DNA of 64,000 bases from Halopseudomonas laoshanensis (GTDB lineage Bacteria > Pseudomonadota > Gammaproteobacteria > Pseudomonadales > Pseudomonadaceae), in assembly GCF_008365385.1 (NCBI RefSeq), contig NZ_QOVF01000001.1, positions 372,001-436,000 on the forward strand, in the 5' to 3' direction. Below are positions 18,709 to 60,340 of this stretch, piece after piece (the first letter of the stretch is position 1; every line of letters starts with the position of its first letter). Both the position numbers and the translations under genes were made by a program. The notes beneath the pieces are model-generated. The model was not told where the DNA came from. It worked only from the letters and a program-made list of their open reading frames with translations, and did no database searches.

Positions 18709-19152
18709 ACATTCTCCTTGATGATAAAAGGCGCACTTTTGGCCCGCCAGTTATGCCCAGAGGGGCCTAAATAGGCGCGTCGTGGGCCAGGAATAGGTGC
18801 GTGACACGTTGGACACTAGAGAAAAATAGAAACACAAATTGAACAAAAGATAAATTTATGTTTAATTTATTGGGTGGATTGATGATTTAAAAAGGGTGGC
18901 CGCCCGGTTTCTCGCCCTTTGCGGCAGATTCAATAACGGCTACGCACACTCGGTTTGTGGGTTGTTTGATTAATCTGAATGCAGAATGTAAATCTTGATA
19001 TGGAATTATGTTATTTGTTCAGCTAGGATGGCTACACGCTGAACTGAGCGCGACAGGCTAAGCCCACCGGGGCTGTGGTTGAAAGGCGCTTGTGGCCTTG
19101 CAGCGATACGCGATGTTTCATTAGCCACTGAAAATAAAAACAAGGAACACAG
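18709..19152. promoter_or_regulatory. 444-bp divergent intergenic region upstream of the first DUF1302 gene
   Basis: No coding sequence is visible. The right two thirds are AT-rich and must hold the promoter of the long plus-strand uptake operon. TGGGTTGTTTGAT at 18958-18970 and GATTAATCTGAATG at 18968-18981 recur, slightly changed, upstream of the AraC gene (31305-31317 and 31328-31341). The sequence GATTAATCTGAATGCAGAAT (18968-18987) also resembles 52363-52383 before another DUF1329 gene. An AAGGAACAC ribosome-binding site precedes the gene. Confidence 0.45.
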
Positions 19153-29097: not shown

Positions 29098-29733
29098 CTA
29101 TTTTCTGATGCTGTTGAGAATGAAATTGGCCGAATGTTCACGCCAGATGCGCATGCCTTCTTTGGAGGTAGTGTCAAAGCCGACGAGAACAGACATGGTG
29201 TAATGGTTGGTAAATCCACCAGACATCAGCAGTGCCGAGCTGGCCAGGAACAAACGAGCGTCTATATCCGGTTTGAAAACGCCGGCTTTGATGCCGCGTT
29301 GGAGCACTGACGAGAATTTGATGGCTAACGCCGGAGATTGACTGGCGAAGCTGTTGGGCCTGGTGTCTGCTGCCTCGTGATAGCGAAGGCCCTCCAGGGC
29401 CAGCGCGCCCAGTAGCGGATCTTCCATATATTGGTCAAAGCAGCAATTGAGCAGTGTTCGCAGTGCTTGTTCCGGCGCCAGATGATCTATTTCCAACGCG
29501 ATCAGCTCTTGCATTATCTGTTGCGAGGCGTCATCCAGAACGGTTGAAAACAGCACTTCCTTAGAACCGTAGTAGTGATAAACCAGTTGCTTGGTCACGC
29601 CGGCTTCTCGCGCAATATCTTCTACCCGTGCGCCGGCCAGGCCTTTCTGGGCAAAGATTTGTCTGGCGGCAGCAAGCAGACGGTTCATGGTATCGCGCTT
29701 GTTCGGCTCTGCACGGTTTGACGGGTTATTCAT
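29098..29733 (-). CDS. TetR-family transcriptional regulator
   Basis: This 211-residue protein has an N-terminal helix-turn-helix: AARQIFAQKGLAGARVEDIAREAGVTKQLVYHYYGSKEVLF. A helical ligand domain follows with a C-terminal segment typical of the TetR_C family (ALALEGLRYHE). It is convergent with the uptake/hydratase/SDR operon and divergent from the atypical SDR gene at 29888. It is one of the candidate binders of the palindromes at 43251 and 52545, but nothing in the sequence proves this. Confidence 0.88.
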   Translation of the reverse strand: MNNPSNRAEPNKRDTMNRLLAAARQIFAQKGLAGARVEDIAREAGVTKQLVYHYYGSKEVLFSTVLDDASQQIMQELIALEIDHLAPEQALRTLLNCCFDQYMEDPLLGALALEGLRYHEAADTRPNSFASQSPALAIKFSSVLQRGIKAGVFKPDIDARLFLASSALLMSGGFTNHYTMSVLVGFDTTSKEGMRIWREHSANFILNSIRK

Positions 29734-31387: not shown

Positions 31388-32284
31388 ATGTATTCAGTAA
31401 ATTATGATGAATATGATCCGGCGGCTGCCGGGGAGTTTCTGACAGAGTCTCGATTGGTGGATGCCGGTTTTGATATTCATATCCAGCATGCTCATTGGTC
31501 GAACTCTGGCACCGCGGTGATTCAGGCAAAGGAAAGTTGCCTGCTGCGTTTGGTCCTGCCGACACCCGCTAGACGCTGGTCACCTTTTTCGGATAACAAG
31601 GGGCGCTTTCCCGCACTCAATTGTGACTTCCAATCGCTTGGGCAAGTGCTGTTTTTGCCACGCGATACAGAGTTTCAGTTTCGTCACGGGGTGTCGGAAT
31701 ACAAGGCCATGATCTGTCTGTTCGACCCAAGTATCATGGGGCCGCTGGCCGGCATCCAATGGCAATGGGACGGCTGCTTGAGCGACAGCATGCTGAATCT
31801 GGAAAATCCCTTTCTGCAAATGTCGCTGCAGCGTCTGGCGCAAGAGGTTGCCGCCCCTGGTTTTGCCAGTGAGCTGCATACCGAGTGCCTGTTGACCAGC
31901 ATCGCACTTGATTTGCATCGGCAGTTTTTGAGTTCGCAGGTCGGCACCGATTCAGGAAAGCTGAGCTCGCAACAGCTGAAAACCTTGCGTGAACTGGTCG
32001 AGTCGGTACCCGAGCAAAGCAATTCCCTAAAACAGCTTGCGGATGTACTGGATATGCCCGCCAGGCGCCTGTCAGAGCAGTTCAAAAGCACCACTGGCCT
32101 GACGCTACGCCAGTATGTAGCGCAGGCCCGCATCCGCCGGGCAAAGTCGCTATTGCTGGATCGCAGCATGTTGATCAAGCAAATCTCCTACCATACCGGG
32201 TTCCTCAGCCCGGCCTCCTTTACGGCAGCTTTCCGTAAAGAGGTCGGTATGACGCCTGAAGCATTCCGCCAGGTGCACCAATAA
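31388..32284 (+). CDS. AraC-family transcriptional regulator
   Basis: This 298-residue protein has an N-terminal cupin-like sensing domain and a C-terminal AraC double helix-turn-helix at about residues 195-297. The DNA-binding domain reads LKQLADVLDMPARRLSEQFKSTTG followed by LIKQISYHTGFLSPASFTAAFRKEVGMTPEAFRQ. The second helix-turn-helix with GF..PASFTAAFRK is the AraC signature. It is convergent with the MFS gene of the next operon. It probably activates one or more of the degradation operons in response to a substrate. Confidence 0.9.
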   Translation: MYSVNYDEYDPAAAGEFLTESRLVDAGFDIHIQHAHWSNSGTAVIQAKESCLLRLVLPTPARRWSPFSDNKGRFPALNCDFQSLGQVLFLPRDTEFQFRHGVSEYKAMICLFDPSIMGPLAGIQWQWDGCLSDSMLNLENPFLQMSLQRLAQEVAAPGFASELHTECLLTSIALDLHRQFLSSQVGTDSGKLSSQQLKTLRELVESVPEQSNSLKQLADVLDMPARRLSEQFKSTTGLTLRQYVAQARIRRAKSLLLDRSMLIKQISYHTGFLSPASFTAAFRKEVGMTPEAFRQVHQ

Positions 32285-41455: not shown

Positions 41456-42814
41456 TTAACGCTGAGATTCACGCGATACGATCGCTTCGGGGTTGAGCTC
41501 GCGCTCGCTTCTGGCTTCGCTCAACACGCGATAACCACCGGTCATGCCGTCGTTGATAATGCCGTACATGCCTTTGTTGAAATCAAATATGGTGTGTTTG
41601 ACGATATAGGGAATGTCGTGATCATAGAACTGCACGCCACCCATCATCATTGAACGGTACAGCTCGCCGTTCTGATCCCAGGCATCGTAGAGGCCAGCGC
41701 CGAAGGTATCTTCATCAAGGTAGTAGGTGCGCTTGCTGTATACGTGGCGCATACCAGGCTTGAGCGTTGCCTCCACTTCCCAGACGCGGTGCTTTTCCCA
41801 GCGCTCGCATTCCGGATTGGCGTGCGCTGTCCGGAACTGGTCATCACAGTTGAAGTAGAACTTGTATTGGTTGTATGGGATCAGCATTTCCTTGCGGCCA
41901 ACCAATTTGAAATCAAACCGGTCCTGCACGCCGGAGAACATGAACAGTTCATCAAACAGTTCCAGACCGCCCATACTGCCAACTGGCGTGTCGTAGTTGA
42001 ATTCCGGGGCAAGCTTCACGCGACGTTGACCGGGTGTATAACTCCATGCTCGCCGTGGCTGAGCGGTAGGGTTGAGGAAGTCCATCAATCCTGTCAGTTC
42101 GCCGGCCTTGCGCGCTGGCGCTTTGGTCACCGAATAAACGCGGTAGAACAACTCAGGATCGCGGCCGGGGATGTCAGTCTGGTAATAAGGCCGCTCGACA
42201 AAGGTTGCCTGGTTGGCTGTACGAGTAACAGAGCCGTTACGATCGACTACCCAGGTATCGGATGAGGAGGTAGTAGTACCAAACTTGCCGTCGTTATAGC
42301 GCACCAGCAGGTTCCACATCATTTCATTGCCGTTTTGTGCTATGGGAAAGGGAATTCCGCCGCGGCAATCGGCTTCGAGCGCCAAACCTTCATTGGAGGT
42401 ATTACAGGTGGTGGCATTCCGGATACTTGCCTCTTCCACTTCCTTTGGATAGGCCGCTGTGCGGTGGGAAGGATAGATATCCATATAATATTCGGGATTG
42501 CGCTGCAGTACTTCCTTCTGACCGGCGCTCAGCAGATCAGCGTGCTCAGCCATGTTCTCTGAGGTAATGCGATATAGCGGCTGCTCGTCCTTGAACGGGT
42601 TGACCCAGAAGCCGCTGTCAGGCTGGAAGCCTTCCGGAGCGTCGCGCAGCCCGCCTTCATAGGGAGGAATTGAACCGTCCGCATTGCCTGCTTGAATGGC
42701 TCCCACCGCTGTCAGGCTTTGCCCTAACTTCTCTGCCTCTTCGGGGCTCACAGCCGCAAAGGAGGCGGCAGATAGTCCGCCCAGTAACAAACCGATAGCA
42801 ATATTCAGTTTCAT
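41456..42814 (-). CDS. DUF1329 secreted protein, copy 3
   Basis: This 452-residue exported protein (signal peptide IAIGLLLGGLSAASFA) is very like copies 1 and 4. Shared blocks are IYPSHRTAAYPKEV, CRGGIPFPIAQNGNEMMWN, PRRAWSYTPGQRRVKLAPEFNYDTPVGSMG and YYLDEDTFGAGLYDAWDQNG. No intact DUF1302 gene precedes it; only a remnant does. The spacer before the ATG (CGGAGAACGTTC) closely matches the DUF1302-DUF1329 spacer of copy 1, showing common descent. It is divergent from the P450 operon and separated from the following hydrolase by a terminator. Confidence 0.92.
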   Translation of the reverse strand: MKLNIAIGLLLGGLSAASFAAVSPEEAEKLGQSLTAVGAIQAGNADGSIPPYEGGLRDAPEGFQPDSGFWVNPFKDEQPLYRITSENMAEHADLLSAGQKEVLQRNPEYYMDIYPSHRTAAYPKEVEEASIRNATTCNTSNEGLALEADCRGGIPFPIAQNGNEMMWNLLVRYNDGKFGTTTSSSDTWVVDRNGSVTRTANQATFVERPYYQTDIPGRDPELFYRVYSVTKAPARKAGELTGLMDFLNPTAQPRRAWSYTPGQRRVKLAPEFNYDTPVGSMGGLELFDELFMFSGVQDRFDFKLVGRKEMLIPYNQYKFYFNCDDQFRTAHANPECERWEKHRVWEVEATLKPGMRHVYSKRTYYLDEDTFGAGLYDAWDQNGELYRSMMMGGVQFYDHDIPYIVKHTIFDFNKGMYGIINDGMTGGYRVLSEARSERELNPEAIVSRESQR

Positions 42815-43041: not shown

Positions 43042-43339
43042 TTTTCTGTCCTTTTATTTTTATTTTTTAGCGGCTAATGCTTTTAACGCAGCGTAGAAGG
43101 ACGTCGGAAAGTCATTCGAACTGTCAGCAATGCCTGAGTAAACCGTAGCAGAGATCCTTTTTTAATTCCATATGCAGATTAATATTCTGCAATAAGAATT
43201 GTAAGTGCTATGGTAAAAACACACCTGTTGGCGAAATCGGTGAGCAGTGCCAATCGTTTTACTCAGGGTAAAACGGTTGCGCAGCACCTGGGCAAGCTTT
43301 GTTATAGGGTGCTCACCAGCTTGAAAAAGGGATACAACC
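43042..43339. promoter_or_regulatory. Divergent promoter region between DUF1329 copy 3 and the P450 operon
   Basis: These 298 bp contain no gene. They hold AT-rich stretches suited to a minus-strand promoter, a TAATATTCTGCAATAAGA element at 43180-43197 like that at 1377, and the palindrome listed separately. A possible -35 TTGCGC (43277) and -10 TTATAG (43302) with 19-bp spacing would place the plus-strand promoter so that the palindrome overlaps its -35 box. AAAAAGGG is the ribosome-binding site for the flavoprotein gene. Confidence 0.45.
43251..43279. promoter_or_regulatory. Palindromic operator, site 1
   Basis: The core GTTTTACTCAGGGTAAAAC (43256-43274) is a 19-bp inverted repeat with one mismatch, and the arms extend imperfectly to 12 bp (CAATCGTTTTAC / GTAAAACGGTTG). 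The same palindrome occurs at 52545-52563. It is 60 bp before the flavoprotein start and overlaps a possible -35 box, as expected for a repressor of the TetR or similar class. Confidence 0.72.
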
Positions 43340-44929
43340 ATGAATAACAACAAGACAGATTTCGACGTAATTATCGTAGGTGGCGGCACCAACGGCCTGT
43401 CGGCGGGCTGCTATCTCGGCCTGGAAGGGAAAAGGACGCTGGTGCTGGAGGCGCTCGACAAAGTGGGCGGCATGGCATCGTCGGGGTATCTGATCCCTGA
43501 AGCCCCCGAGCATCTGGTACACCCCTGCGCTCTGGACATGATGTCGATGCGTGTTCATTCCCACATTCCCCAGGAACTGGACCTTGAGCGCCACGGATTC
43601 AAGTCCATCGAGCTGGCGCCAGGGTACGTTTATCTGCACCCGGATGGGAGCTCGCTGGTGTTCTGGCGAGATCGGCTGAAAACCGCTGCGGAGATCAGGC
43701 GCTACAGCAACAATGACGCTCAGGCGTTTCTGGAGTTCATGAACGTTATCGACATGTTCCTGGAAATTGCTCTCCCAATGATGCGCGTTGATCCGGCGAA
43801 ATTGAACTTCGGGGCCAAGCTGAAAGTGATAGGCAGCGCCCTGAAAAATCGTAAGCTCAAGCCTGAATTGATGGGTCTGCTGACCGGCTCCGCGCATCAG
43901 GCAGCACGTGAACGCTTCGAGCACCCGGTCACCATTTCCGCGATGTGCGCCCTGACTGGATTGGCCGGAGATATCACCGCTGATGGCGGCGGTATCTACT
44001 ATGCCTTGCTGGGCTTTCTTCACCGCTTTGGTGTTGGTCGGGTGCTCGGCGGGATGCAGCAACTGAGCAATGCCATGCGCTCCAGGCTCGAAGAATTGGG
44101 CGGGCAGGTCATTACCTCTGCAACCGTGACGGAAATCGTCTCCAGCCAAGGAACGGTGAAAGGCGTCAAGCTGGCCGATGGACGCGAGTTCACGGCCCGC
44201 TCGGTCATCGCCGGCTGCCATCCTAAAGTGGCTTTGGAAATGGTGACGGCTGGCGAAATGCCCAGGCACCTGCTCACCCGTATCGCCATGGCGCCAGCCA
44301 ATGCCAAGGGCTCAGGGCCGCTCAAGGTGGATGTGGCGCTGGACGGTCAGATTTCCGTGCCGCGCTTCGAACAAGCCCGGGGCGACGGCGTCGACCTGCG
44401 CAAGACCTGCCTGCTGATCGGTACCGAGGAAGCCGTGCTGGAAAGCTTTAGCGCCTGCGCCCGGGGTGAAGTACCTACGCTACCGTATATCACCATGGCC
44501 ACTCCAAGCGCTGCGGATCCTTCCCAGGCTCCGGCCGGCCAGGACGTGGTCTACATCTACCCGCCGGTCATGCCGGTCAACCCGAAAGCGGGCTGGGATA
44601 ACATCAGGGAAGCTGTTGCAGATCAGGTCATCGATCAGCTCTCGGCCTATGTAGAAGGCATCAAGGGGCATGTCATAGGTCGGCGGATCGAAGCCGCGCC
44701 GGATTTTACCGCACGTCTGAACACGGTGAATGGATGTGTCGTGCATATCGACACCACCTCTATGCGCTCCAGCACCATGCGCCCGGCTCACGGGCTGGGC
44801 GGCGATACCCTGCCGGTCGCAGGCTTGTATCTGGGCAGTGCCGGCATTCATCCCGGTGGCGGCGTGAATGGCATGGCTGGCCGTCTGGCAGCCAAGCGCG
44901 TGGCCAGTTATCTGGCGAAGAACCCCTAA
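43340..44929 (+). CDS. Phytoene-desaturase-like FAD-dependent oxidoreductase
   Basis: This 529-residue flavoprotein starts with the FAD loop VIIVGGGTNGLSAGCYL and E-rich strand end LVLEALDKVGGMASS. The C-terminus GLYLGSAGIHPGGGVNGMAG is the closing FAD-binding motif of the phytoene desaturase/PYROXD2-like family. It has no signal peptide and is probably soluble or peripheral. Such enzymes oxidise or isomerise C-C bonds of hydrophobic molecules. It leads the operon with the P450 44 bp downstream, so it likely acts on the same substrate or its product. The start has AAAGGG at a good distance. Confidence 0.85.
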   Translation: MNNNKTDFDVIIVGGGTNGLSAGCYLGLEGKRTLVLEALDKVGGMASSGYLIPEAPEHLVHPCALDMMSMRVHSHIPQELDLERHGFKSIELAPGYVYLHPDGSSLVFWRDRLKTAAEIRRYSNNDAQAFLEFMNVIDMFLEIALPMMRVDPAKLNFGAKLKVIGSALKNRKLKPELMGLLTGSAHQAARERFEHPVTISAMCALTGLAGDITADGGGIYYALLGFLHRFGVGRVLGGMQQLSNAMRSRLEELGGQVITSATVTEIVSSQGTVKGVKLADGREFTARSVIAGCHPKVALEMVTAGEMPRHLLTRIAMAPANAKGSGPLKVDVALDGQISVPRFEQARGDGVDLRKTCLLIGTEEAVLESFSACARGEVPTLPYITMATPSAADPSQAPAGQDVVYIYPPVMPVNPKAGWDNIREAVADQVIDQLSAYVEGIKGHVIGRRIEAAPDFTARLNTVNGCVVHIDTTSMRSSTMRPAHGLGGDTLPVAGLYLGSAGIHPGGGVNGMAGRLAAKRVASYLAKNP

Positions 44930-44972
44930 CGATCAAATAACAAAAATTACATTCTTAACAGGAGGACACCCT

Positions 44973-46250
44973 ATGTCACTCGCAGCCCAGGAACTTGACA
45001 TCGAAGCCGCCTACCATGCGGTCTCGGACACCTATCTTGGTTCGGACGTCGATATCCATGGCCTATGTCGGGACAAGCGTCACAACGAACCGGTAATGCA
45101 AGGCGACTTTGTTGACACCTACCTCAAGGTGCCGACCAATGCTGGCGCCAAGGCGGCCAAGTGTGCAGTCACGTTGTTCAAGTACAAGGACATAATGGCG
45201 GTTCTGCGTGACGCCGACACCTTCACCAGCGGTTTCATCGCCGAAGGACTGGGTGCGTTTTTTGATGGACTGATCATCCTGGCGATGGATGGCGAGCAGC
45301 ACCGGCGCACCCGCGCACTGCTGCAGCCGGTGTTCATGCCGCAGACCGTGAACGAATGGCGACCCGAGATTGATCGGGTCATCCGCGAAGAGTTCCTGTT
45401 GCCCATGGTGGCAGACAAGAAAGCCAATCTAATGGACTTTGGTCTTTATTTTCCAATTCGCGCCATGTATGCGCTGATGGGTTTTCCTGCCGATGATCCG
45501 GAAAAGTTCAAAAAGTACGCGAGCTGGGCGTTGGCATTGGTGGCGGCTAACCAGATTGATCCGGAAAAGGCCAAGATCTATGGGCCTCTGGCTGGCCAGG
45601 CGGTAAAGAGCCTTTATGATGCGATCAAAGAGGTGGTCGTTAGCAAGCGCGCCGAGGGCACTCAAGGGAATGATCTGATCAGCCGCCTGATCAATGCCGA
45701 ATACGAGGGCCGGGCATTGGATGATCATGAGGTGACCACCTTTGTCCGCTCGTTATTACCGGCCGCAGGGGAAACTACCACCCGGACCTTTAGTTCGGTG
45801 ATGACGCTGCTGCTGGAGCGCCCCGAGTTGTTGGAGCGAGTGCGCAATGATCGCAGTCTGATCGGCAAACTGATCGATGAAGCCGTGCGTTATGAACCGG
45901 TAGCAACTTTCAAGATTCGCCAAGCCTCAAAGGATGTCGAGATCGGTGGCGTTATGTTGCCCAAAGGGGCAATGGTTCAATGCATGGTGATTTCTGCCAA
46001 TCGTGATGAGGACGCCTTCGACAATCCAGACGCCTTTGATCTGGACCGCAAGTCGCGACCTTCGCTGGGGTTTGGGTTTGGTCCGCATATGTGCATTGGG
46101 CAGTTTGTTGCGAAGGTAGAGCTCAACAGCGCGATTAACGGCATTCTCGATCTGTTCCCCAATATCCGTCTTGATCCAGACATGCCCGCGCCGAAGATTG
46201 CCGGAGCGCAACTGCGTGGCGCAAAGTTCATTCATGCCGTCTGGGATTGA
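44973..46250 (+). CDS. Cytochrome P450, class I bacterial type
   Basis: This 425-residue soluble P450 has all diagnostic parts. The C-helix is HRRTR (110-114), the I-helix oxygen-activating motif AAGETT is at 264-269, the K-helix ExxR is Glu303-Arg306, and the haem loop FGFGPHMCIG has the Cys374 ligand. It has no membrane anchor, so it should take electrons from a ferredoxin. The putidaredoxin-type ferredoxin and reductase at 53998-55570 are the only such pair in the window. A perfect AGGAGG precedes the start. It would hydroxylate or epoxidise the hydrophobic substrate. The CYP subfamily cannot be assigned without a database search. Confidence 0.95.
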   Translation: MSLAAQELDIEAAYHAVSDTYLGSDVDIHGLCRDKRHNEPVMQGDFVDTYLKVPTNAGAKAAKCAVTLFKYKDIMAVLRDADTFTSGFIAEGLGAFFDGLIILAMDGEQHRRTRALLQPVFMPQTVNEWRPEIDRVIREEFLLPMVADKKANLMDFGLYFPIRAMYALMGFPADDPEKFKKYASWALALVAANQIDPEKAKIYGPLAGQAVKSLYDAIKEVVVSKRAEGTQGNDLISRLINAEYEGRALDDHEVTTFVRSLLPAAGETTTRTFSSVMTLLLERPELLERVRNDRSLIGKLIDEAVRYEPVATFKIRQASKDVEIGGVMLPKGAMVQCMVISANRDEDAFDNPDAFDLDRKSRPSLGFGFGPHMCIGQFVAKVELNSAINGILDLFPNIRLDPDMPAPKIAGAQLRGAKFIHAVWD

Positions 46251-46286
46251 AACTCACGCCAGCCCGGCCTTGAGAGGTGAAGACCA

Positions 46287-46640
46287 ATGAATAATGTTGA
46301 TAACGTAGAGATCAAAAACTTCCTGCATGGGCAGCTCAAATGCTGGAATGCCGGCGATCGGGATGGCTTCTTTGAGCACTACCGAAAAATATCTCCCAAC
46401 GGGCTGGATATCGAGTATCTGGGCCGGCCGGTGATGGAGGGTTTCGCAGTGCTGGAAGGCATGTGGGACCAGCAGAACAGCAAATTCAGCGTGGAGGTTG
46501 CGTTGTCGATCATTGCCGCCAATGAGGCGGCTTGCCACCACAGAAATGTGATGCGCGATGGTGGCGGTGTTATCGAAACCATTGAGTTGTACAAGTTTGA
46601 GGAGGGCAGGACGCTGGTACGCTACTTCATCAAGCAGTGA
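46287..46640 (+). CDS. NTF2/SnoaL-fold protein
   Basis: This 117-residue protein fits the cone-shaped NTF2 fold: an N-terminal helix with FLHGQLKCWNAGDRDGFFEHY, then LDIEYLGRPVMEGFAVLEGMWDQQ, then a curved sheet ending TIELYKFEEGRTLVRYFIKQ. The Arg/Asp/Asp set of limonene epoxide hydrolase is not present. Relatives include isomerases, cyclases and dehydratases, or ring-hydroxylase small subunits. It is the third gene of the P450 operon, 36 bp after the P450. Function is unknown; rearrangement of the P450 product is a guess. Confidence 0.75.
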   Translation: MNNVDNVEIKNFLHGQLKCWNAGDRDGFFEHYRKISPNGLDIEYLGRPVMEGFAVLEGMWDQQNSKFSVEVALSIIAANEAACHHRNVMRDGGGVIETIELYKFEEGRTLVRYFIKQ

Positions 46641-46664
46641 CGGGCCGACAGCTTGCCGCCAAGC

Positions 46665-46685
46665 AACCGCAGTAACGCTGCGGTT
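46665..46685 (+). terminator. Hairpin after the P450 operon
   Basis: AACCGCAG and CTGCGGTT form a perfect 8-bp stem with a 5-nt loop, followed by TCTCC. It lies 25 bp after the NTF2-fold gene. The T-run is short, so read-through into the methyltransferase gene is possible. Confidence 0.55.
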
Positions 46686-46821
46686 TCTCCGTGTCTGGTG
46701 CCATGTGGCGCGCGATTCCTGCGCGCAAATGCACAGCTCAGGCCTGCTATGATCACCGCGGGCGTTCTTATTCGAGCCAATCCCGATCCAGGCCGAGCAA
46801 TTCCCATCCAGGATAGTCCCT

Positions 46822-47640
46822 ATGAACAAACAACTCTTGGAGAGCTGGCGCATTGAAGCGCGTCGGCAACTTGTCTCACAGCGCGGCTTGAACGTCTGGC
46901 CGCACGATGAACCAGATGATCTGGAGCAAATCCAGCAGATCCGTGAATGGCTCGACAGCCTGCCGGAGCCCGTGGTGCTGCAGCACCCGCTGCACCCCCT
47001 GAAAATACGGGTGGCCAGGGGTTTCAGCCCGCGCATGGCTTACTACTTTGCCCTGGGTGATTACGAGGAAGCGGATCTCGAGTTGATCGAGAAGATGATC
47101 AGGCCGGGGGACAGGGTGCTGGAGTGTGGCGGCGGTGCGGGCATCACCGGTTCGCTGGCGGCTCGCTGTTCGGGTAATCCGGTCACCATCGTCGAGCCCA
47201 ACGAGGTCATGCATGGAATCATCCGCCAGAACGTCCAGCTTAACGGGCAGGAATGCCGACTGATTACGGCGGCGGTAGTGGCCGACGCCTATGCAGGCGA
47301 TACGCTGACCCTTCGCGTGCAGGATGAATACTGGTGGAGTTCGGTGCTGGATCATGGTTCGGGCACGCCGGTGCAGACTGCGGTCGCGAGGATTTCCGAT
47401 TTACTGGAAAGCATCTGCCCCAGCGTTCTGGTGTTGGATATCGAGGGCGCGGAAGTAGGACTGTTGCCTGCAAAGTTGCCCGATGATCTGCGCTTGATCA
47501 TGGTCGAGTTACATACACCTGATATAGGCGATGAGGCCACCGTCAGCGTGGTCAATACGATAATGGGCCAGGGTTTCCGTCTCTGCCATGTCAGGTCCCA
47601 GACCTGGGTGTTCGAGCGATCTCAAGCCATTTCTGGTTGA
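46822..47640 (+). CDS. FkbM-family methyltransferase
   Basis: This 272-residue protein has the SAM-binding motif VLECGGGAGITGSLAA at about residues 97-112, followed by TIVEPNEVMHGIIRQNV. The FkbM signature VLVLDIEGAEVGLL lies near residue 205. FkbM proteins usually O-methylate sugars or polyketides. In a degradation island this is unusual and may modify a surface glycan or a toxic intermediate. It begins 181 bp after the P450 operon, behind a hairpin, and its 3' end overlaps the convergent MFS gene by 19 bp. Confidence 0.83.
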   Translation: MNKQLLESWRIEARRQLVSQRGLNVWPHDEPDDLEQIQQIREWLDSLPEPVVLQHPLHPLKIRVARGFSPRMAYYFALGDYEEADLELIEKMIRPGDRVLECGGGAGITGSLAARCSGNPVTIVEPNEVMHGIIRQNVQLNGQECRLITAAVVADAYAGDTLTLRVQDEYWWSSVLDHGSGTPVQTAVARISDLLESICPSVLVLDIEGAEVGLLPAKLPDDLRLIMVELHTPDIGDEATVSVVNTIMGQGFRLCHVRSQTWVFERSQAISG

Positions 47641-48905
47641 GAGGGCCGGGATTGGAATGCGCTTGCCGAGCGCAGCGTCAACAGGGTCAGGGATGCCACT
47701 ATTGCCGCGACCAGCGAATACATGATGACCGGGTCGTAGTTTCCGTACTGGGTATGGATGTAGCCGAAAAAAGCCGGAGACATACCCGCCACGATAGTGA
47801 CCAGACCCAGATGTAACCCAAAAATGCGCGCATAGTCTTTCATGCCGAAATAGCGAGCCATGAGAAAGGCGGCTATATCAAACTCCGCACCTGCGCTTAA
47901 ACCTATGCAGACCGTAGCCAGTACCAGCAGGGCGGTAGACTCTGGCCCCGTCACCAGCAAGATAAGACAACCTATGGCCGGGGTGAACAGCGCAGCGGCG
48001 GAAATGACGATGGGCGAGTAATGGTCAAGCAGGTAGCCAACCAGCAGCCGTCCGGCAATGATTGATGCGCCGAAGGCACTGAAGATCTGGCTGGCAGTAA
48101 GTGCAGGTACGCCTTTGTCCTGCAGGTAAGGCACCATCACCGTGACCATGGCAACGATAAGCGATACGGACAGGATGAGTGATAGGTTGCATATCCAGAA
48201 GGTCCGGGATTTGCGCGCTTCGACAAAGGTGAATCCGGTCGCCGCCAGCGGGGCTGTGCGAGCTTTTCCTTGAGCGCTTTGGGGCTCGGCTGCCGGGAGT
48301 TGCAACCACAGCAGCGCCATCGGCAGCGTGGTCACCAGGGGCATCACCGCCAGCAACAAAAAGCCTGCCTGCCAGCCCCAGCGTTCCATGCACCAGGCCA
48401 GCAAGGGCGGAACGATCAACGCCGCCACACCGGTCCCGCTCAGGATGATCGCCAGCGCCAGCCCACGGTTGCGCTCGTACCACAGGCTTATGAGTTGGGT
48501 CCAGGTGATGGCAATAGTTCCCAGGCAAAGCAGCGGCATGGCGAAAAACGCGAAATACAGCCAGGCGATATGGCCATTGAGCTGGGTCAGGGCGGCATAA
48601 CACAGAACCTGCAGAATGACCGAGACAATGGCCACACGGCGCAAACCGAAACGCGAATACAGCCATCCGAGCAACTGCGAGGCGACCGCCACGCCGGCGA
48701 AAAGAAAGGTAATGGAAGCCTGAAGTTCGCCACGGCTCCAGCCAAAGGCTTCCTGAAGCGGGATGACCATAGTGCCGAAACCGTAGAGCAGGGCCGCACT
48801 CATACTGGTAACAACGCCAAATACGCCGAGAATCAGAAGTCGCCAGCCCAGGCGGAATTCGGTGAGATCAAGCCTTGGTTGACTTGACAGGTTGTGGTCG
48901 GACAT
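47622..48905 (-). CDS. MFS transporter, paralogue 2
   Basis: This 427-residue protein has about 12 hydrophobic helices. It shares diagnostic blocks with the copies at 32293 and 55594: PYLQDKGVPALTASQIFSAFG, GAEFDIAAFLMARYFGM and ARIFGLHLGLV. It is last in the DUF1329-unknown-SDR-MFS operon headed by the gene at 52263. An inner-membrane carrier for a pathway metabolite is the likely role. Its 3' end overlaps that of the methyltransferase by 19 bp on the opposite strand. Confidence 0.88.
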   Translation of the reverse strand: MSDHNLSSQPRLDLTEFRLGWRLLILGVFGVVTSMSAALLYGFGTMVIPLQEAFGWSRGELQASITFLFAGVAVASQLLGWLYSRFGLRRVAIVSVILQVLCYAALTQLNGHIAWLYFAFFAMPLLCLGTIAITWTQLISLWYERNRGLALAIILSGTGVAALIVPPLLAWCMERWGWQAGFLLLAVMPLVTTLPMALLWLQLPAAEPQSAQGKARTAPLAATGFTFVEARKSRTFWICNLSLILSVSLIVAMVTVMVPYLQDKGVPALTASQIFSAFGASIIAGRLLVGYLLDHYSPIVISAAALFTPAIGCLILLVTGPESTALLVLATVCIGLSAGAEFDIAAFLMARYFGMKDYARIFGLHLGLVTIVAGMSPAFFGYIHTQYGNYDPVIMYSLVAAIVASLTLLTLRSASAFQSRPSQPEMA

Positions 48906-48975
48906 TTTGCAACTCCTACGGCACCTGCGCCTGCATCAAGCCGGCGCGCGATCAGCATTATTTTTATGGTTATCT

Positions 48976-49764
48976 TTATGACTTTTTAAGTAATTCTTCG
49001 ATCTTGGGTAAAGCGACCATGGTGGCTCCGCCATCCACCAGCAGCGAGGTACCGGTGATGTAACTTGCCTCGTTTGAGGTAAGGAACAACACTGCTGAAG
49101 CGATATCAGCCGATTGCCCCAATCGGGGAACCGGAAAATGTTCCGCCAGCAGGTGGGGTAGCTCCTCGCCCAGGGTGCTCATCATGTGGTCCGTGCCGAT
49201 CAGGCCCGGCTCCACCACGTTGACCAGAATATTCAGTGCACCGAATTCGACGGCTAGCCCGCGGGCAAAGGCATTCATGAAGGCTTTGCTTGAGCCGTAG
49301 GGGATCAGCGTGGGGGTGTACTTGCGATTGGCCTCGCCGGAGGAAATGAAGATGATGCGTCCCTTGCTCTCCGCTTTGGTGAGGTGCGGCGCGGCATCCT
49401 TGGCTAGCCAGAACAGGGACTGGATATTGCTGCGTACCAGATGATCGAAGGTCTCGTCCGGCATCTCGGTGATCAGCCCGTGGGCGGTATCCGCTGCGCA
49501 ATGGACCACAATATCCAGCTGGCCGAAGTGATCAATGGCACCTTCTACCATGGACTTTATCGCTGCCCGGTCGGCTATATCGCCGCCGACCAGGGTCGCT
49601 TCACAGTTCAGCGCTTTTATCTGCTCGACCGTCTCATTACCGTATTTCGGTGTTCTTGCTGAGACCACAAGCTTGGCGCCTTCCGCAGCGTAGGCCAACG
49701 CGATGGCTTTGCCCATGCCGCGCCCGGCGCCTGTCACCAGAACAACCTTGTCTTTGAATCTCAT
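48976..49764 (-). CDS. SDR-family oxidoreductase
   Basis: This 262-residue classical SDR has the cofactor loop LVTGAGRGMGKAIALAY, a basic position after strand 2 (VVSARTPKYG) that favours NADP, and the catalytic SSGEANRKY...PYGSSKAFMN with Ser, Tyr and Lys. VHCAADTAHG replaces NNAG. I start at 49764 (MRFKDKVVLVTG) behind CGGGAGCAACAC; the upstream extension crosses a hairpin and is unlikely. It follows the unrecognised gene and precedes the MFS gene by 70 bp. Confidence 0.88.
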   Translation of the reverse strand: MRFKDKVVLVTGAGRGMGKAIALAYAAEGAKLVVSARTPKYGNETVEQIKALNCEATLVGGDIADRAAIKSMVEGAIDHFGQLDIVVHCAADTAHGLITEMPDETFDHLVRSNIQSLFWLAKDAAPHLTKAESKGRIIFISSGEANRKYTPTLIPYGSSKAFMNAFARGLAVEFGALNILVNVVEPGLIGTDHMMSTLGEELPHLLAEHFPVPRLGQSADIASAVLFLTSNEASYITGTSLLVDGGATMVALPKIEELLKKS

Positions 49765-49792
49765 GTGTTGCTCCCGCAGTGTCGAATCGAGT

Positions 49793-49817
49793 TGCCTGCC
49801 TGCAAAGCAGGCAGGCA
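49793..49817 (-). other. Intra-operon hairpin between unknown gene and SDR gene
   Basis: A perfect 11-bp stem, TGCCTGCCTGC with GCAGGCAGGCA, has an AAA loop. It lies between the unknown gene's stop and the SDR start with no T-run after it. Such hairpins often protect the upstream mRNA end, which would give the DUF1329 and unknown proteins in excess over the SDR and MFS. Confidence 0.6.
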
Positions 49818-49827
49818 TGAAGCCGCG

Positions 49828-50859
49828 CTACAGATCAGCGCCCCGCACATTACGGGCTGTGCCGTTGCGACGGTCGGACTCACCCCAGGCCAGCCAGCGG
49901 TCTGGTTCGCGCTCATCGCCCACTCGACGCCAGCGTCCTTCTTGCTGGGCGGTGATCGGAAAGCCGCCGACGAAATCGATCATTTCGCCCTTAGGTGCAG
50001 GAAGGAATTCCCATTCTTCCTCACCGTCCAGGATGATGCGTGCCGAATCGAGGAAGTAACTACCGTCCTTGTGCATCGCCAACCCTTCAATATCGGTCGT
50101 GGTGCGTATTTCGCCTTTTTCATTCATGAAAATGGCATAGCCAAGGTGTTCATGACCGACCATGAAGGAGCCCGAGTCCCAGGTGCCGTCCTTGTAGATG
50201 GTCACGAATGACCACCAGATCACGTGCATCTTGTTGTTTACCACCAGGTCCTTCTTGAAGTGAATGGCGCCGCCCTCGGCCATGTAGAACTGGTCCAGCG
50301 CCATCGCGCCCTTCACTGGGCGGCCTTCACAGGTTCCCGAAATATCCCAGAGCTGGGAGACGTAGAAGGTGCCCCATTCAACGCCAGGCAAGTACCACTG
50401 CAGGCCAGGCCCAAGTAATTTGCCTTCCAGCTCAAACAGGCCGTCCTCCTTCCAGGTAAGCTTTTCACTCGACGCGGTGATCTTCCATGAATTGCCCGGC
50501 TCGTCAGGCTGGTTGGTCCAGGTGACAGTGTCGCCTTCCAGCGTCTGCAGCGGAATAGGCGTGGGCGCTTGGGCGGCCATGCGCTCTTGATCCATGCGCA
50601 AATGCTGACCATCGATATGGTTGGTTTGATAGATGAACTTGGTCGGATTGGGCGTGCCGTTGGGCGCGAGCAGTGAGCGAACGAAAGAATAGATGTTGCC
50701 CTCTTCGTCGCGCACCGAGCCAAATGGAGAGCTCTTGCTTAACTGCAGGCCGAAGAAACCACGCTCACCGGCCATCGCTGGCCCGGTTACCTTGTGGGGG
50801 CCAACCAGTTGCTGGTAACCAAAATCGCCGCGTTCAGGAATCGTTGTAAAAGTTCGCAT
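49828..50859 (-). CDS. Unrecognised beta-rich protein in the DUF1329 operon
   Basis: This 343-residue protein has no signal peptide and no membrane segment. It is rich in Trp, Gly and Asp and alternates in a way that suggests antiparallel beta-sheet, with blocks such as WGTFYVSQLWDISGTCEGRP, HVIWWSFVTIYKDG and DSGSFMVGHEHLGYAIFMN. A calycin or CrtC/AttH (hydroxyneurosporene-hydratase-like) double-lipocalin fold is a possible match, but only by general appearance. It lies 39 bp after the fourth DUF1329 gene, so it probably binds or converts the same hydrophobic ligand in the cytoplasm. I give no function. Confidence 0.75.
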   Translation of the reverse strand: MRTFTTIPERGDFGYQQLVGPHKVTGPAMAGERGFFGLQLSKSSPFGSVRDEEGNIYSFVRSLLAPNGTPNPTKFIYQTNHIDGQHLRMDQERMAAQAPTPIPLQTLEGDTVTWTNQPDEPGNSWKITASSEKLTWKEDGLFELEGKLLGPGLQWYLPGVEWGTFYVSQLWDISGTCEGRPVKGAMALDQFYMAEGGAIHFKKDLVVNNKMHVIWWSFVTIYKDGTWDSGSFMVGHEHLGYAIFMNEKGEIRTTTDIEGLAMHKDGSYFLDSARIILDGEEEWEFLPAPKGEMIDFVGGFPITAQQEGRWRRVGDEREPDRWLAWGESDRRNGTARNVRGADL

Positions 50860-50898
50860 AGCATTCTCATTGTTTTTGGATGACTTAGGGGGGTTAGG

Positions 50899-52263
50899 TT
50901 ATCGCTGGCTGTAACGCGAGACGATTGACTCGGGGGCCATATTCCTCTCGGGTAGAGGTGTGGGATCAAACTGATAACCGCCTTTCAACCCATCGTTGAT
51001 CACGCCATACATTCCCTTGTTGAAGTCATAGATCACGTTTTTAACGTTATAGGGGATGTCCAGATCGTAGAGTTGCACGCCGCTGAGGAACATAGAGCGG
51101 TAGAGGCTGCCTTGCTGGTCCCAGGCGTCATACAAACCAACGCCAAAGGTGTCTTCGTCCAGGTAGTAGGTACGCTTGGCATACACGTGTCTGCTGCCTG
51201 ATTTGAGGGTCGCTTCTACGACCCATACACGATGCAGTTCCCAACGCTCACATTCAGGGTTCGCATGCTTCTCGAGCATCTGTTCCTCCTGACCACAATC
51301 GAAATAGAACTCGTAGGCGTTATAGGGAATAAACATCTCCTTGCGGCCGACCAGTTTGTAGTCAAACCGCTCCTGGCTGCCGGAGAACATCTGTAGTTCA
51401 TCGAACAGCGTGACGCCGCCCTGACTGGCGACGGGCGTGTCGAAAGCGAACTCCGGTGCCAGTTTGATGCGGCGCTGCCCAGGGGAGTAACTCCAGGCCC
51501 TGCGGGGCTGATCAATGGGATCGAGAAAGTCGGCCAGGACGGTTACTTCGCCTGCACGGCGGGCTGGGTATCGGTTAAGAGAGAACACCCGGGCGTACAT
51601 TTCGGGATTGCGGTCGTCCTGGTCCACCTGGTAGTAGGGCATTTCTTCAAAGGTTTGCTGTTCGGCAGCCTTGGTCACACTGCCGTTGGAATCGATAATC
51701 CAGCTGTTGGATGAAGCAGTAGTCGAATACCCAGAGCCAATCTTGTAACGCAGTTGCTGGTTCCATAGCACTTCGTTGCCCGACTGGGGAATGGGAAAGG
51801 GCAGGCCGCCACGGCACGCGGCATCCACAGCCAGCCCGTCTTTCTCGGTATTGCACTCGGTGGCATTGCGAATGGTTGCTTCGACGACTTTCTCTGGATA
51901 AGCAGCAGTGCGGTGGCTGGGAAAAATATCGAGGTAATAGTCCGGATTGGTTTGCAGCAGATGTTTCTGTCCGGCGCTTAAATTGTCGGCGTATTGGTCC
52001 ATATTGCTGGCGTCGATACGAAACAGCGGTTCCTCGTCTTTGTAGGGATCAACCCAGAATCCCGAATCAGGCTCAAAGCCTTCAGGCGCTGTGCGCAGCC
52101 CTCCGGTATACGCCGGAATGGTGCCTTCACTATTGCCTTCCTTGATGGCTCCCCAGGGCGTCAGGCTGTCTCCGAGTTTGGCTGCTTCTTCGGGGCTGAC
52201 CGCTGCCAGGGAAAATGTCGAGATGCCACTCAGGGCGATACACATCATCAGTCGGTTTTTCAT
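50899..52263 (-). CDS. DUF1329 secreted protein, copy 4
   Basis: This 454-residue exported protein (signal peptide with ALSGISTFSLA) belongs to the same close group as copies 1 and 3. It has FPSHRTAAYPEKVV, CRGGLPFPIPQSGNEVLWN, PRRAWSYSPGQRRIKLAPEFAFDTPVA and YYLDEDTFGVGLYDAWDQQG. It heads an operon with no DUF1302 gene and continues with the unrecognised protein, an SDR and an MFS carrier. The palindrome at 52545 lies about 280 bp upstream. It may share the outer-membrane barrel of another DUF1302 copy. Confidence 0.92.
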   Translation of the reverse strand: MKNRLMMCIALSGISTFSLAAVSPEEAAKLGDSLTPWGAIKEGNSEGTIPAYTGGLRTAPEGFEPDSGFWVDPYKDEEPLFRIDASNMDQYADNLSAGQKHLLQTNPDYYLDIFPSHRTAAYPEKVVEATIRNATECNTEKDGLAVDAACRGGLPFPIPQSGNEVLWNQQLRYKIGSGYSTTASSNSWIIDSNGSVTKAAEQQTFEEMPYYQVDQDDRNPEMYARVFSLNRYPARRAGEVTVLADFLDPIDQPRRAWSYSPGQRRIKLAPEFAFDTPVASQGGVTLFDELQMFSGSQERFDYKLVGRKEMFIPYNAYEFYFDCGQEEQMLEKHANPECERWELHRVWVVEATLKSGSRHVYAKRTYYLDEDTFGVGLYDAWDQQGSLYRSMFLSGVQLYDLDIPYNVKNVIYDFNKGMYGVINDGLKGGYQFDPTPLPERNMAPESIVSRYSQR

Positions 52264-52654
52264 TACGGCTCTCCAGCTTTTTATTTTTGTGCATGTTCAG
52301 TGCTCTGCCGCCATTTCTTTCCGTGAGTTTGTGCGGTGAATTCAACCTAGCAGAGCCATATCGATTAATCCACAATACAGAATTCCATTCTTTTGGAAGA
52401 ATTTTGATATTGACGTAATTGAAGGTTTGAGAGGTTTTTGCTGGAGCTTTGATGTTTTGCTGTAGCCCAATGCTGCTGCGGCTCGCAGAGGGCAGCGGCG
52501 CTCTCTCAAGGTTTGTGAATCGATTGAAGAGAGGGCTATAAATCGTTTTACCCTGGGTAAAACAAAACCATACCGAGAGGTTTTGGTGAACGCGCGGATA
52601 AGAGCGTTGCCAGAGTAAGAATCATGATCCTTCGGGGGGAAGGGGTGGAGACAT
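52264..52654. promoter_or_regulatory. 391-bp intergenic region upstream of DUF1329 copy 4
   Basis: No gene is visible. The region carries a ribosome-binding site (TGGAGAG) for the DUF1329 gene, an AT-rich stretch at 52360-52430 suitable for its promoter, and GATTAATCCACAATACAGAA at 52363-52382, which resembles 18968-18987. The 19-bp palindrome at 52545 is listed separately. The end of the Bcr-type MFS gene lies at its right edge. Confidence 0.45.
52545..52563. promoter_or_regulatory. Palindromic operator, site 2
   Basis: GTTTTACCCTGGGTAAAAC is a perfect 19-bp palindrome around a central T. It matches the site at 43256-43274 at 17 of 19 positions; the left-arm mismatch and the central base differ. 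It lies about 280 bp before DUF1329 copy 4, with no other start codon nearby, so that operon is the likely target. Confidence 0.72.
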
Positions 52655-53875
52655 CTAGATATCCGAGCCCTGAGAAATCAGCAAATTCTGCCGGTTTGCC
52701 AGTATGTGAATCAACAGGCCGCTACCCGACAGCAGCAACATGACGCCGGTCAATGGAACCGCGCTGGGCATGCTCCAGATACTCACCGCCGCCGCTCCAC
52801 AGGTACCCAGCAGAAACTGAATACACCCCATGATGGCAGAAGCAGAGCCCGCCCGATGGCCTTCGTTGGCCATGGCAAGGGCAACCGCGTTGGGGCTGAG
52901 CAGCCCCATTGAAGTCATGTAGATAAAAAAGCAGACCATAAGCAAGGGCAGGGAGGCGACGCCCGTCAAGGTAGCGACCAGCCCTACCAGCGATGCTGCG
53001 GCAGGGACTATGATCACGTATTTCAGCATGGTCGCGGGGCCGAAGCGGGCGACCAGCCGTGCATTGAACTGCGAGCCGCCGATCATGCCAAATGCATTGA
53101 TTCCGAAAAACCAGCCGAAGTGCTCTGCGGGTACGCCATACAGTTCGATGATGACGTAAGGCGAGCCTGCCACATATGCAAACATGCCACCAAAAGGTAG
53201 GGAGCCTATCAGTACATAGGTCATGAACTGGCCGTTACCCAGCAGGTTCGCGTAGCGGCGGAAGTTACCGACAATACCCAAACGTTCGGCTGTGTGCCGT
53301 GACAGTGTCTCACGCATGCTGAAATGCATGCTTATCAGCAGGATCAGGCCGGCACCGGCGAGTACTGCAAAGATCCCTCTCCAATCCATTACCATCAAGA
53401 GCAGCCCGCCGATGATGGGAGCCAGAATGGGTGCCAGACCGAGTGCCAGCATCAACATCGAGAACGCCCACGCGGCCTGTGCTGTGGTCGTACGGTCACG
53501 AATAACGGCCCGGCAGATAACTACCCCAGCGCTGCCGCCGAGCGCCTGAAAAAAGCGTGACGCGGTGAGGGTGGTCAGGTCATTTGCCAGCATGCAGCCG
53601 ATAGATGCAGCAATATAAAGTACGAGCCCGAAATACAACGGCGGCTTGCGTCCATAGCGGTCGCTCAGGGGGCCGTACAGTAGTTGCCCTAGTGACATGC
53701 CGAGCAGAAAAATCGCCAGTGTAATCTGTACCTCTGCGGACTCGACATCCAGGCTGCGCGCGATTGATGGAAAGGCGGGCAGGTACAAGTCAACCGACAG
53801 CGGCGAGAGAGCCGTCAACATCGCAAGCAGAAATAACCAGCCTGGGAAGAATGGCGCTTTTTCACTCTTACTCAT
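52655..53875 (-). CDS. Bcr/CflA-type MFS drug efflux protein
   Basis: This 406-residue 12-helix carrier differs from the other three MFS genes. Its motif A, GQLLYGPLSDRYGRKPPLYFG, follows helix 2, and LYLPAFPSIARSLDVESAEVQ near the N-terminus is the Bcr/CflA signature. Bcr-type pumps export bicyclomycin, chloramphenicol or sulfonamides by proton antiport. Here it follows the ferredoxin reductase by 122 bp and may export toxic intermediates. I chose the ATG at 53875 behind TTGGAG. Confidence 0.9.
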   Translation of the reverse strand: MSKSEKAPFFPGWLFLLAMLTALSPLSVDLYLPAFPSIARSLDVESAEVQITLAIFLLGMSLGQLLYGPLSDRYGRKPPLYFGLVLYIAASIGCMLANDLTTLTASRFFQALGGSAGVVICRAVIRDRTTTAQAAWAFSMLMLALGLAPILAPIIGGLLLMVMDWRGIFAVLAGAGLILLISMHFSMRETLSRHTAERLGIVGNFRRYANLLGNGQFMTYVLIGSLPFGGMFAYVAGSPYVIIELYGVPAEHFGWFFGINAFGMIGGSQFNARLVARFGPATMLKYVIIVPAAASLVGLVATLTGVASLPLLMVCFFIYMTSMGLLSPNAVALAMANEGHRAGSASAIMGCIQFLLGTCGAAAVSIWSMPSAVPLTGVMLLLSGSGLLIHILANRQNLLISQGSDI

Positions 53876-53997
53876 GGATGGTGACTCCAACGCAGCGATT
53901 CAGAGGGGCATGCAGGGCGAGCGGGCTCGAAATACTGCGATAGCGACGGTAAACCCCTTCAACTTTGCAGGTATCAAGGGTCACCAAGATCAAGCGA

Positions 53998-59521: not shown

Positions 59522-60151
59522 CTATTGCCGCGCAGGTTGATTGGCCGGCCATACGCCATTGTTTAACAGCGCATCAAAAGCCGTGCTCATCTCTGCGGCG
59601 TTGTGCGGGTAGTCATGTCGAACCCACCAGAGCCAGAGCCCCAGCAGAGCTCCGACAAAGCAGCGTACGGTGGCTTCGCGGCTTAACTCTTCTGCAATGC
59701 CAATCTGATAGCGGCAATAGTGTTCGCGCACCTGAACAATCAATATATTTTCCAGGTGAGCCAGGATGATTGCTTGGGAAGGACTGTTGAAAAAAGCAGT
59801 AGTCAGTGACGCATGTTGCTCCGTGGCTGTAAATAACCAGTTAGCGACATCCAGGACCGCAACGGGTGCTCCCGACACCATGACTGTGCGAGTTGTTGGA
59901 AGGCCGATGCTTTCGTAGCCAGCCACTAGCAGATCTTCCTTGTCACGAAAGTGCGCGTAGAACGTGGACCGAGCTATCCCAGCGGTATCCAGCAGTTCCT
60001 GAACCGTAATATCGCGAAAGTCCTTTTCCAGTGCGAGCCTGTACATAGTGCCGAGCAGCCGGTCGCGAGTGTGCTGGATTCTGAGTTTGTGGCGATCCTC
60101 CGGCGCATTCGGCGGGTCACCATTGGGGCGGTCTGGATGGCGCTTGCTCAT
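59522..60151 (-). CDS. TetR-family transcriptional regulator
   Basis: This 209-residue protein has a helix-turn-helix in the N-terminal third: MYRLALEKDFRDITVQELLDTAGIARSTFYAHFRDKEDLL. The following region is helical with several Trp residues (LLGLWLWWVRHDYP), typical of a hydrophobic ligand pocket. It is divergent from the GMC oxidoreductase-aldehyde dehydrogenase operon 300 bp away and probably represses it. It is another candidate for the palindromes, although no copy lies in its own promoter region. Confidence 0.88.
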   Translation of the reverse strand: MSKRHPDRPNGDPPNAPEDRHKLRIQHTRDRLLGTMYRLALEKDFRDITVQELLDTAGIARSTFYAHFRDKEDLLVAGYESIGLPTTRTVMVSGAPVAVLDVANWLFTATEQHASLTTAFFNSPSQAIILAHLENILIVQVREHYCRYQIGIAEELSREATVRCFVGALLGLWLWWVRHDYPHNAAEMSTAFDALLNNGVWPANQPARQ

Positions 60152-60340
60152 ACCTTTTTCCACGGGAACGATGAATTGTTATGCCCGTGAGACTGCCACA
60201 GCCGGTTTGGCCTGGGCAAGATAAAGCCTGATTGGCATTCTCTGGTGTACACCGAACGGATATCAAATTCTGTCCGTTGTAGCTCGGTTGCGTGCAGACC
60301 TACACTCCCAGCTTCAGCAAAAGAACAACGGATAAAAACA
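60152..60340. promoter_or_regulatory. Divergent promoter region, TetR and GMC operon
   Basis: This region should hold the promoters for the TetR gene and the GMC/ALDH operon. ACCGAACGGATATCAAATTCTGTCCGTTGTAGC (60250-60282) contains ACGGA and TCCGT in inverted orientation about 15 bp apart, a possible TetR operator. No strong -35/-10 match was found by eye. Confidence 0.4.

Follow-up and report, generated by a model that had tools for sequence, protein, structure and literature searches.

As set out in the passages of the cited papers considered here, the TetR-tetA paradigm consists of a dimeric TetR-family protein and a palindrome located between the divergent regulator and target genes (PMC3511530), and the neighbours of TetR-family genes have been surveyed by Ahn et al. 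2012 with a focus on streptomycetes (PMC3511530). Among the closest described systems, the TetR-family protein PsrA of Pseudomonas activates rpoS and represses its own gene (PMC13104628), AtuR and RdmA recognize a pair of 13-bp repeats, AGCAAGCGCTTGG and CCAAGCGCTTGCT (PMC9973270), and AmeABCD of Castellaniella defragrans (DUF1302/DUF1329/RND) connects DUF1302 and DUF1329 proteins with monoterpene metabolism (PMC6394551). Here we describe two copies of a 19-bp palindrome in a 64,000-nucleotide stretch of Halopseudomonas laoshanensis DNA (contig 1, positions 372001–436000; hereafter the window), one upstream of the genes for a CrtO/CrtI-like FAD oxidoreductase (the flavoprotein) and a cytochrome P450, and the other upstream of a DUF1329 gene and its neighbours. 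From sequence comparison, both are very probably operators of the TetR-family regulator encoded at 29098–29733 on the minus strand.

Site 1 (GTTTTACTCAGGGTAAAAC, 43256–43274, plus strand) is intergenic, lying between the divergent DUF1329 copy 3 (41456–42814, minus strand) and the flavoprotein gene (43340–44929, plus strand), which is the first gene past it. Site 2 (GTTTTACCCTGGGTAAAAC, 52545–52563; on the minus strand, towards the operon of DUF1329 copy 4 and the 49828–50859 gene, it reads GTTTTACCCAGGGTAAAAC) is also intergenic, between the end of an MFS gene (52655–53890, minus strand) and DUF1329 copy 4 (50899–52263, minus strand), the first gene past it in the window, whose start codon is about 280 bp away. 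The two sites are identical but for two positions; site 2 is perfectly symmetrical about its central base, and site 1 has one mispaired position. A preliminary description of this DNA had reported both palindromes with their two differences and had placed both between genes, the first between DUF1329 copy 3 and the flavoprotein-P450 genes, and the sequence and gene coordinates agree with it on each count. It had also considered chance an unlikely cause, and the counts bear this out. When up to three mismatches are allowed, sites 1 and 2 are the only matches in the window and, in the genome-wide search it had suggested, the only two in the whole genome (16 contigs, 4,106,373 bases), with no match at all for the backwards pattern used as a control. 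Dinucleotide shuffles of the window gave on average 0.02 matches at the same tolerance, and none of 100 reached 4.

The palindrome is also closely tied to the flavoprotein gene within the genus. Among 37 same-genus genomes, again with the backwards pattern as control, the flavoprotein is present in 14, and GTTTTAC-N5-GTAAAAC is found upstream of it in all 14 (13 exact, one with one mismatch); the comparison with related genomes, likewise proposed earlier, thus found the site kept upstream of every flavoprotein orthologue in the genus. Across the 37 genomes, the motif occurs exactly in 13 and with at most one mismatch in 15, the latter being the 14 flavoprotein-bearing genomes plus G012, where the site falls within a 6045-codon reading frame. 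When the 14 sequences ahead of the flavoprotein gene are aligned, TTTTAC and GTAAAACGG are the same in all of them and the five central bases vary, which is the pattern expected of a protein-bound dyad.

Counterparts of site 2 were found in 9 of 16 stretches from relatives, and 8 of these could be aligned. That the second palindrome precedes DUF1329 copy 4, as described earlier, holds for the window, but in four of the nine loci with site 2 (L024, L025, L026 and L035) no DUF1329 copy 4 follows the site and the 49828–50859 homologue is next. At L037, site 2 lies between DUF1329 copy 4 and this homologue, which are divergent there. Since these four loci lack DUF1329 copy 4 after the site, and the gene at 49828–50859 (minus strand) lies past site 2 in nine of nine, gene order across relatives indicates that the latter, not DUF1329, is the constant partner of site 2. 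In the P. abyssi group (L023, L031 and L032), the 49828–50859 gene follows the P450 gene and a single exact site is left. In H. formosensis, a third operator is flanked by a DUF1302 homologue and an MFS gene (L165 1501–1519, G005:C13:46851), and a second TetR gene (54% identity, cut off near a contig end) has GTTTGACCTGGAGTCAAAT upstream (L069 1296–1314).

A Pfam scan that covered 30 open reading frames of the window recognized four transcription regulators. The candidate binders had earlier been given as two TetR proteins and an AraC protein, and of these the TetR protein encoded at 29098–29733 is now favoured by its domains, its co-occurrence with the sites and the operators beside the genes of its homologues. 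It contains TetR_N (PF00440, residues 19–63, E 7.1e-16) and the C-terminal ligand/dimer domain TetR_C_29 (PF17938, E 2.1e-15). Its orthologues (at least 62% identical, with second copies of 54–55% in two genomes) are found in the same 14 same-genus genomes as the flavoprotein, and a further match, 30% identical, is present in G009.

The same association was found family-wide in a survey of 298 Pseudomonadaceae genomes, with cut-offs of E 1e-50 for the TetR protein and E 1e-150 for the flavoprotein. The TetR protein is present in 25 genomes and the flavoprotein in the same 25, and the exact motif GTTTKAC-N5-GTMAAAC, found in 31 of the 298, occurs in all 25 of them and in 6 of the other 273 (Fisher p 4.5e-31, with kinship left out of account and 14 of the 25 positives coming from a single genus). 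The backwards pattern occurs in 16 of 298. An exact site stands 40–90 bp from the TetR match in 12 of the 25 genomes, including all 11 from outside the genus, and 83–207 bp before the flavoprotein start in the other 13. None of the 6 extra exact sites has a homologue of the 45 compared window proteins within 1.5 kb; G221 carries a second exact site on another contig. This co-occurrence, together with the genome-wide rarity and the conservation upstream of orthologous genes, sustains the earlier proposal of a candidate regulon with its own operator.

Outgroup loci also favour this regulator. They were the best 80 of 100 matches, with similarity to the TetR protein as the sole criterion of choice. 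The exact motif was found in 43 of these 80 loci and a site with at most one mismatch in 65, as compared with no exact match and at most 10 loci with up to one mismatch for 20 half-site scrambles. When the count is confined to the 300 bp upstream of the TetR match, 31 loci have an exact site, 42 one with at most one mismatch and 55 one with at most two, and random 300-bp windows from the same loci contained a 1-mismatch site in 88 of 4000 cases. Fifteen loci lack a site with at most one mismatch. For eight of them, of Halopseudomonas type and Marinobacter (L070–L077), the site lies beyond the fetched flank: a whole-genome search locates it for L070, L071, L073 and L077, and L072, L074, L075 and L076 correspond to genomes G035, G005, G033 and G003, in which it is present.

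We also classified 143 sites with at most two mismatches from 96 loci (some genomes being represented twice) by their neighbouring genes, whose starts, here and in the promoter analysis below, were extrapolated from tblastn matches. Of the 143, 116 lie within 420 bp upstream of the estimated start of a gene for the TetR, P450, flavoprotein or 49828–50859 protein or a DUF1329 protein, and 47 of these 116 are flanked by divergent TetR and P450 starts. Pseudomonas, Stutzerimonas and Massilia are among the genera in which the operator separates the TetR gene from the P450 gene. An exact motif of Paraburkholderia dinghuensis (L151 1501–1519) adjoins a 77% homologue of the short-chain dehydrogenase encoded at 17857–18708 of the window, a hint of a possibly wider regulon in that species.

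The sites of the window, like most others of the genus, have T at half-site position 5, whereas in the wider set of 55 distinct sites this base is G in 40, T in 13 and C in 2. Since both half-site forms occur within single genomes (for example L081 and L142), and since the stretch TKQLVYHYYGSKE of the TetR protein is identical in 14 of 15 aligned sequences, one TetR protein probably accepts both the G and T forms. This stretch, which reads TKQLIFHYYGSKE in a 55% homologue, is taken for the recognition helix.

Several observations weigh against assigning both palindromes to the TetR protein encoded at 29098–29733, or against a uniform mode of action. A lone 1-mismatch site means little, because the backwards control at up to one mismatch has matches in 9 of 37 same-genus genomes. 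In the window and 12 other genomes, nothing with fewer than four mismatches to GTTTTAC-N5-GTAAAAC was found within 1.5 kb of the TetR gene, so that the regulator would not control its own gene through this operator in those genomes; within the same distance, the 54–62% TetR homologues have sites with 2 or 3 mismatches to this T-type motif. Seven outgroup loci (L113, L116, L118, L121, L137, L139 and L141) have no site with at most one mismatch in the fetched stretch; 2-mismatch sites are found in five of them and none in L113 and L116. For L113 (Azospirillum), however, the only motif of the genome with at most one mismatch lies about 170 bp before a 49828–50859 homologue, which speaks for the assignment. 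The LysR gene at 16910–17818 is found in the same 14 same-genus genomes, and co-occurrence by itself therefore cannot choose between this LysR protein and the TetR protein; it is the outgroup loci that favour the latter. Finally, at site 2 of the window a −10-like hexamer is missing from the 31–32 bp distance described below.

The position of the operator relative to the promoter bears on the direction of control. The preliminary description had placed the first palindrome at a possible −35 box, and in this respect it has to be corrected: a −10-like hexamer, TAGGGT (43305–43310, plus strand), assigned by its match to the consensus and its conserved spacing, starts 31 bp past site 1, and the corresponding −35 place falls just downstream of the 19 bp and has no −35 above chance. 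We compared clusters of sequences less than 65% identical over 60 bp, among which related sequences still remain. TANNNT starting 31 or 32 bp past the operator was found in 12 of 16 clusters for the P450 (shuffle mean 0.41, maximum 3), in 8 of 17 for the flavoprotein (shuffle mean 0.49, maximum 3) and in none of 28 clusters towards TetR. A match of at least 4/6 to TATAAT at these distances was found in 11 of 16 P450 clusters, 8 of 17 flavoprotein clusters, 3 of 28 on the TetR side, 3 of 5 before the 49828–50859 gene and 0 of 5 before DUF1329 copy 4; by either criterion the numbers are 13 of 16, 14 of 17, 3 of 28, 3 of 5 and 3 of 5, respectively. The hexamers differ in sequence (TACCAT, TAAGCT, TACACT, TAGGGT, TACGTT and others), and hence the spacing is not merely copied sequence. 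The best −35 matches at the P450 and flavoprotein promoters are no better than in shuffles. A sigma-70 promoter scan returned nothing in either site region of the window, so that the −10 assignment is drawn from the cross-species spacing alone.

Activators use an operator at a fixed place next to a missing −35, whereas repression by blocking does not depend on such spacing, and its sites usually overlap the −35 or −10. The fixed −10 spacing and the absence of a −35 above chance thus suggest that the regulator activates a promoter without a −35 from a set position ahead of it, which is our first choice among the modes of action, although we hold it at about even confidence and on sequence grounds. 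Such a role is plausible for a TetR-family protein, as PsrA shows that a Pseudomonas member can be an activator of one gene and at the same time a repressor of its own. The mode of action may differ at site 2, since the hexamer is missing at that distance and a separate promoter block is common to DUF1329 copies 3 and 4. The same TetR protein and operators could instead form a ligand-released repressor system in which the promoters are blocked, and this has a substantial likelihood, short of an even chance: TetR regulators located less than 200 bp from a divergent neighbour were mostly repressors in the streptomycete-centred study of Ahn et al. 2012 (PMC3511530, in the passages considered), and 47 of the 116 classified sites are flanked by TetR and P450 starts in divergent orientation, but the TANNNT hexamers recurring at 31 or 32 bp in the P450 and flavoprotein clusters without a −35 above chance speak for activation.

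That the sites belong to the LysR protein encoded at 16910–17818 is improbable. It shares the 14 same-genus genomes with the sites, but no site with up to three mismatches lies near its gene in the window, a LysR homologue was found within the fetched 20 kb in just 1 of 11 chosen outgroup loci (L142; the rest of these genomes was not searched), and in 10 of the 11 the operator stands beside the TetR, P450 or flavoprotein gene. A full 7+7 palindrome also suits a TetR dimer. Binding by the second TetR protein (59522–60163) or the AraC protein (31388–32284) is very improbable. Both genes are in the same gene region and, within the genus, are found only in site-bearing genomes, but the TetR 59522–60163 gene was not found or is broken in 6 of the 14 site-bearing genomes, and the AraC gene was not found in 3 of the 14 (G001, G017 and G018). 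The former is decaying in relatives, with internal stops in G017 and G031 and split fragments in G003 and G033; it was not found in G001 and G024, the latter genome being only 75% complete. Chance repeats, or a transcript hairpin or terminator, can practically be set aside: palindromes can form hairpins, but the genome-wide rarity, the conserved arms around a changing centre and the co-occurrence argue against this, and no terminator-like site was found in either region.

In the arrangement proposed here, a dimer of the TetR protein encoded at 29098–29733 would sit on GTTTKAC-N5-GTMAAAC with one half-site per subunit, and would couple the flavoprotein-P450 genes (through site 1) and the 49828–50859 operon (through site 2) to a small-molecule signal, which is probably a pathway substrate or intermediate; its terpenoid- or steroid-like nature is a guess from the gene content. 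In many relatives, the TetR and P450 genes diverge from a common promoter region that contains the operator. In the window lineage, where 13.5 kb separate the TetR gene from site 1 and no operator was found close to that gene, the regulator would act at a distance on two operators. More generally, and with a likelihood just under even, we tentatively suggest that a distinct TetR subfamily, represented in gamma- and betaproteobacteria and in one or more alphaproteobacteria (Azospirillum), activates promoters of P450 and CrtO-like flavoprotein genes that lack a −35, the centre of its operator lying about 53 bp ahead of the transcription start, and that in Halopseudomonas the regulator gene has been relocated to a distance from its targets and no longer controls itself.

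As for the genes beside the sites, the flavoprotein matches the NCBIfam CrtO model at 2e-66 (225 bits, cut-off 1000), and its PDB match is the phytoene dehydrogenase 4dgk. The P450 gene occupies 44973–46250 on the plus strand, with a start inferred from 425-residue orthologues (the listed open reading frame starts at 44868). Past site 2, in the same direction and all on the minus strand, the 49828–50859 gene is accompanied by a short-chain dehydrogenase gene (48976–49818) and an MFS transporter gene (47622–48905). The 49828–50859 protein is highly conserved, with 14 homologues of 60–89% identity; a PDB sequence search gave no relative, and comparison with Pfam gave weak matches only and no family. 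Its predicted fold (a weak model with a mean pLDDT of 68, poor at residues 1–39) resembles AttH, kievitone hydratase and 25-phosphosteroid lyase; given the quality of the model, the likeness to AttH and kievitone hydratase (TM-scores 0.42–0.55) is a lead only. Judged by its gene content, the region looks like one for the catabolism of a terpenoid- or steroid-like compound.

Whether site 1 also controls DUF1329 copy 3 is uncertain, because this gene has its own conserved promoter block. This second block, unrelated to the palindrome, has the form TGCAGAAT.T.AATCT..ATATGGAATTA followed, after 10 bp, by a TCWGCTA-type hexamer. It is located before DUF1329 copy 3 (43142–43191, minus strand), where it is conserved, before the DUF1302 gene at 19153 (18980–19029, plus strand) and, in a weaker form, before DUF1329 copy 4 (52344–52369, minus strand). 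Another regulator, such as the LysR protein (16910) or the AraC protein (31388), may use this block as its operator.

None of the titles listed by literature searches, which covered few subscription journals, concerns this regulator, its operator or the regulon. With the present assignment, an uncharacterized catabolic region would gain a regulator, an exact operator and a short target list that can be traced across dozens of species, and the pathway substrate becomes testable, since a compound that alters TetR binding would probably be a substrate or intermediate. If the fixed −10 spacing does mean activation, a conserved and widespread activator would be added to the TetR family, which is known mostly for its repressors. 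With regard to the systems introduced at the outset, PsrA is likewise a TetR-type regulator with a palindromic operator, but its site, given as GAAAC-N4-GTTTC or C/GAAAC-N2-4-GTTTG/C (PMC13104628, in the part considered), differs from GTTTKAC-N5-GTMAAAC, and the protein encoded at 29098–29733 scores 32 bits against the NCBIfam PsrA model NF053516 (cut-off 300) and is not a PsrA equivalog. AtuR and RdmA are similar in setting, being TetR regulators of Pseudomonas catabolic clusters for isoprenoid-like compounds (acyclic terpene and DSF catabolism), but their repeats bear no resemblance to the window motif, and the two sites described here differ in sequence from the AGCAAGCGCTTGG type. AmeABCD shares the DUF1302 and DUF1329 families with the gene region of the window, but the P450, the flavoprotein and the operator are absent from the passages of PMC6394551 considered, a paper that was not searched for them. 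The layout of the TetR-tetA paradigm recurs in the Pseudomonas loci of the outgroup set, whereas in the window the regulator gene stands 13.5 kb from the nearer operator, with no site found near it. A TetR regulator with a palindrome and catabolic genes is an arrangement already known, here as a small local regulon.

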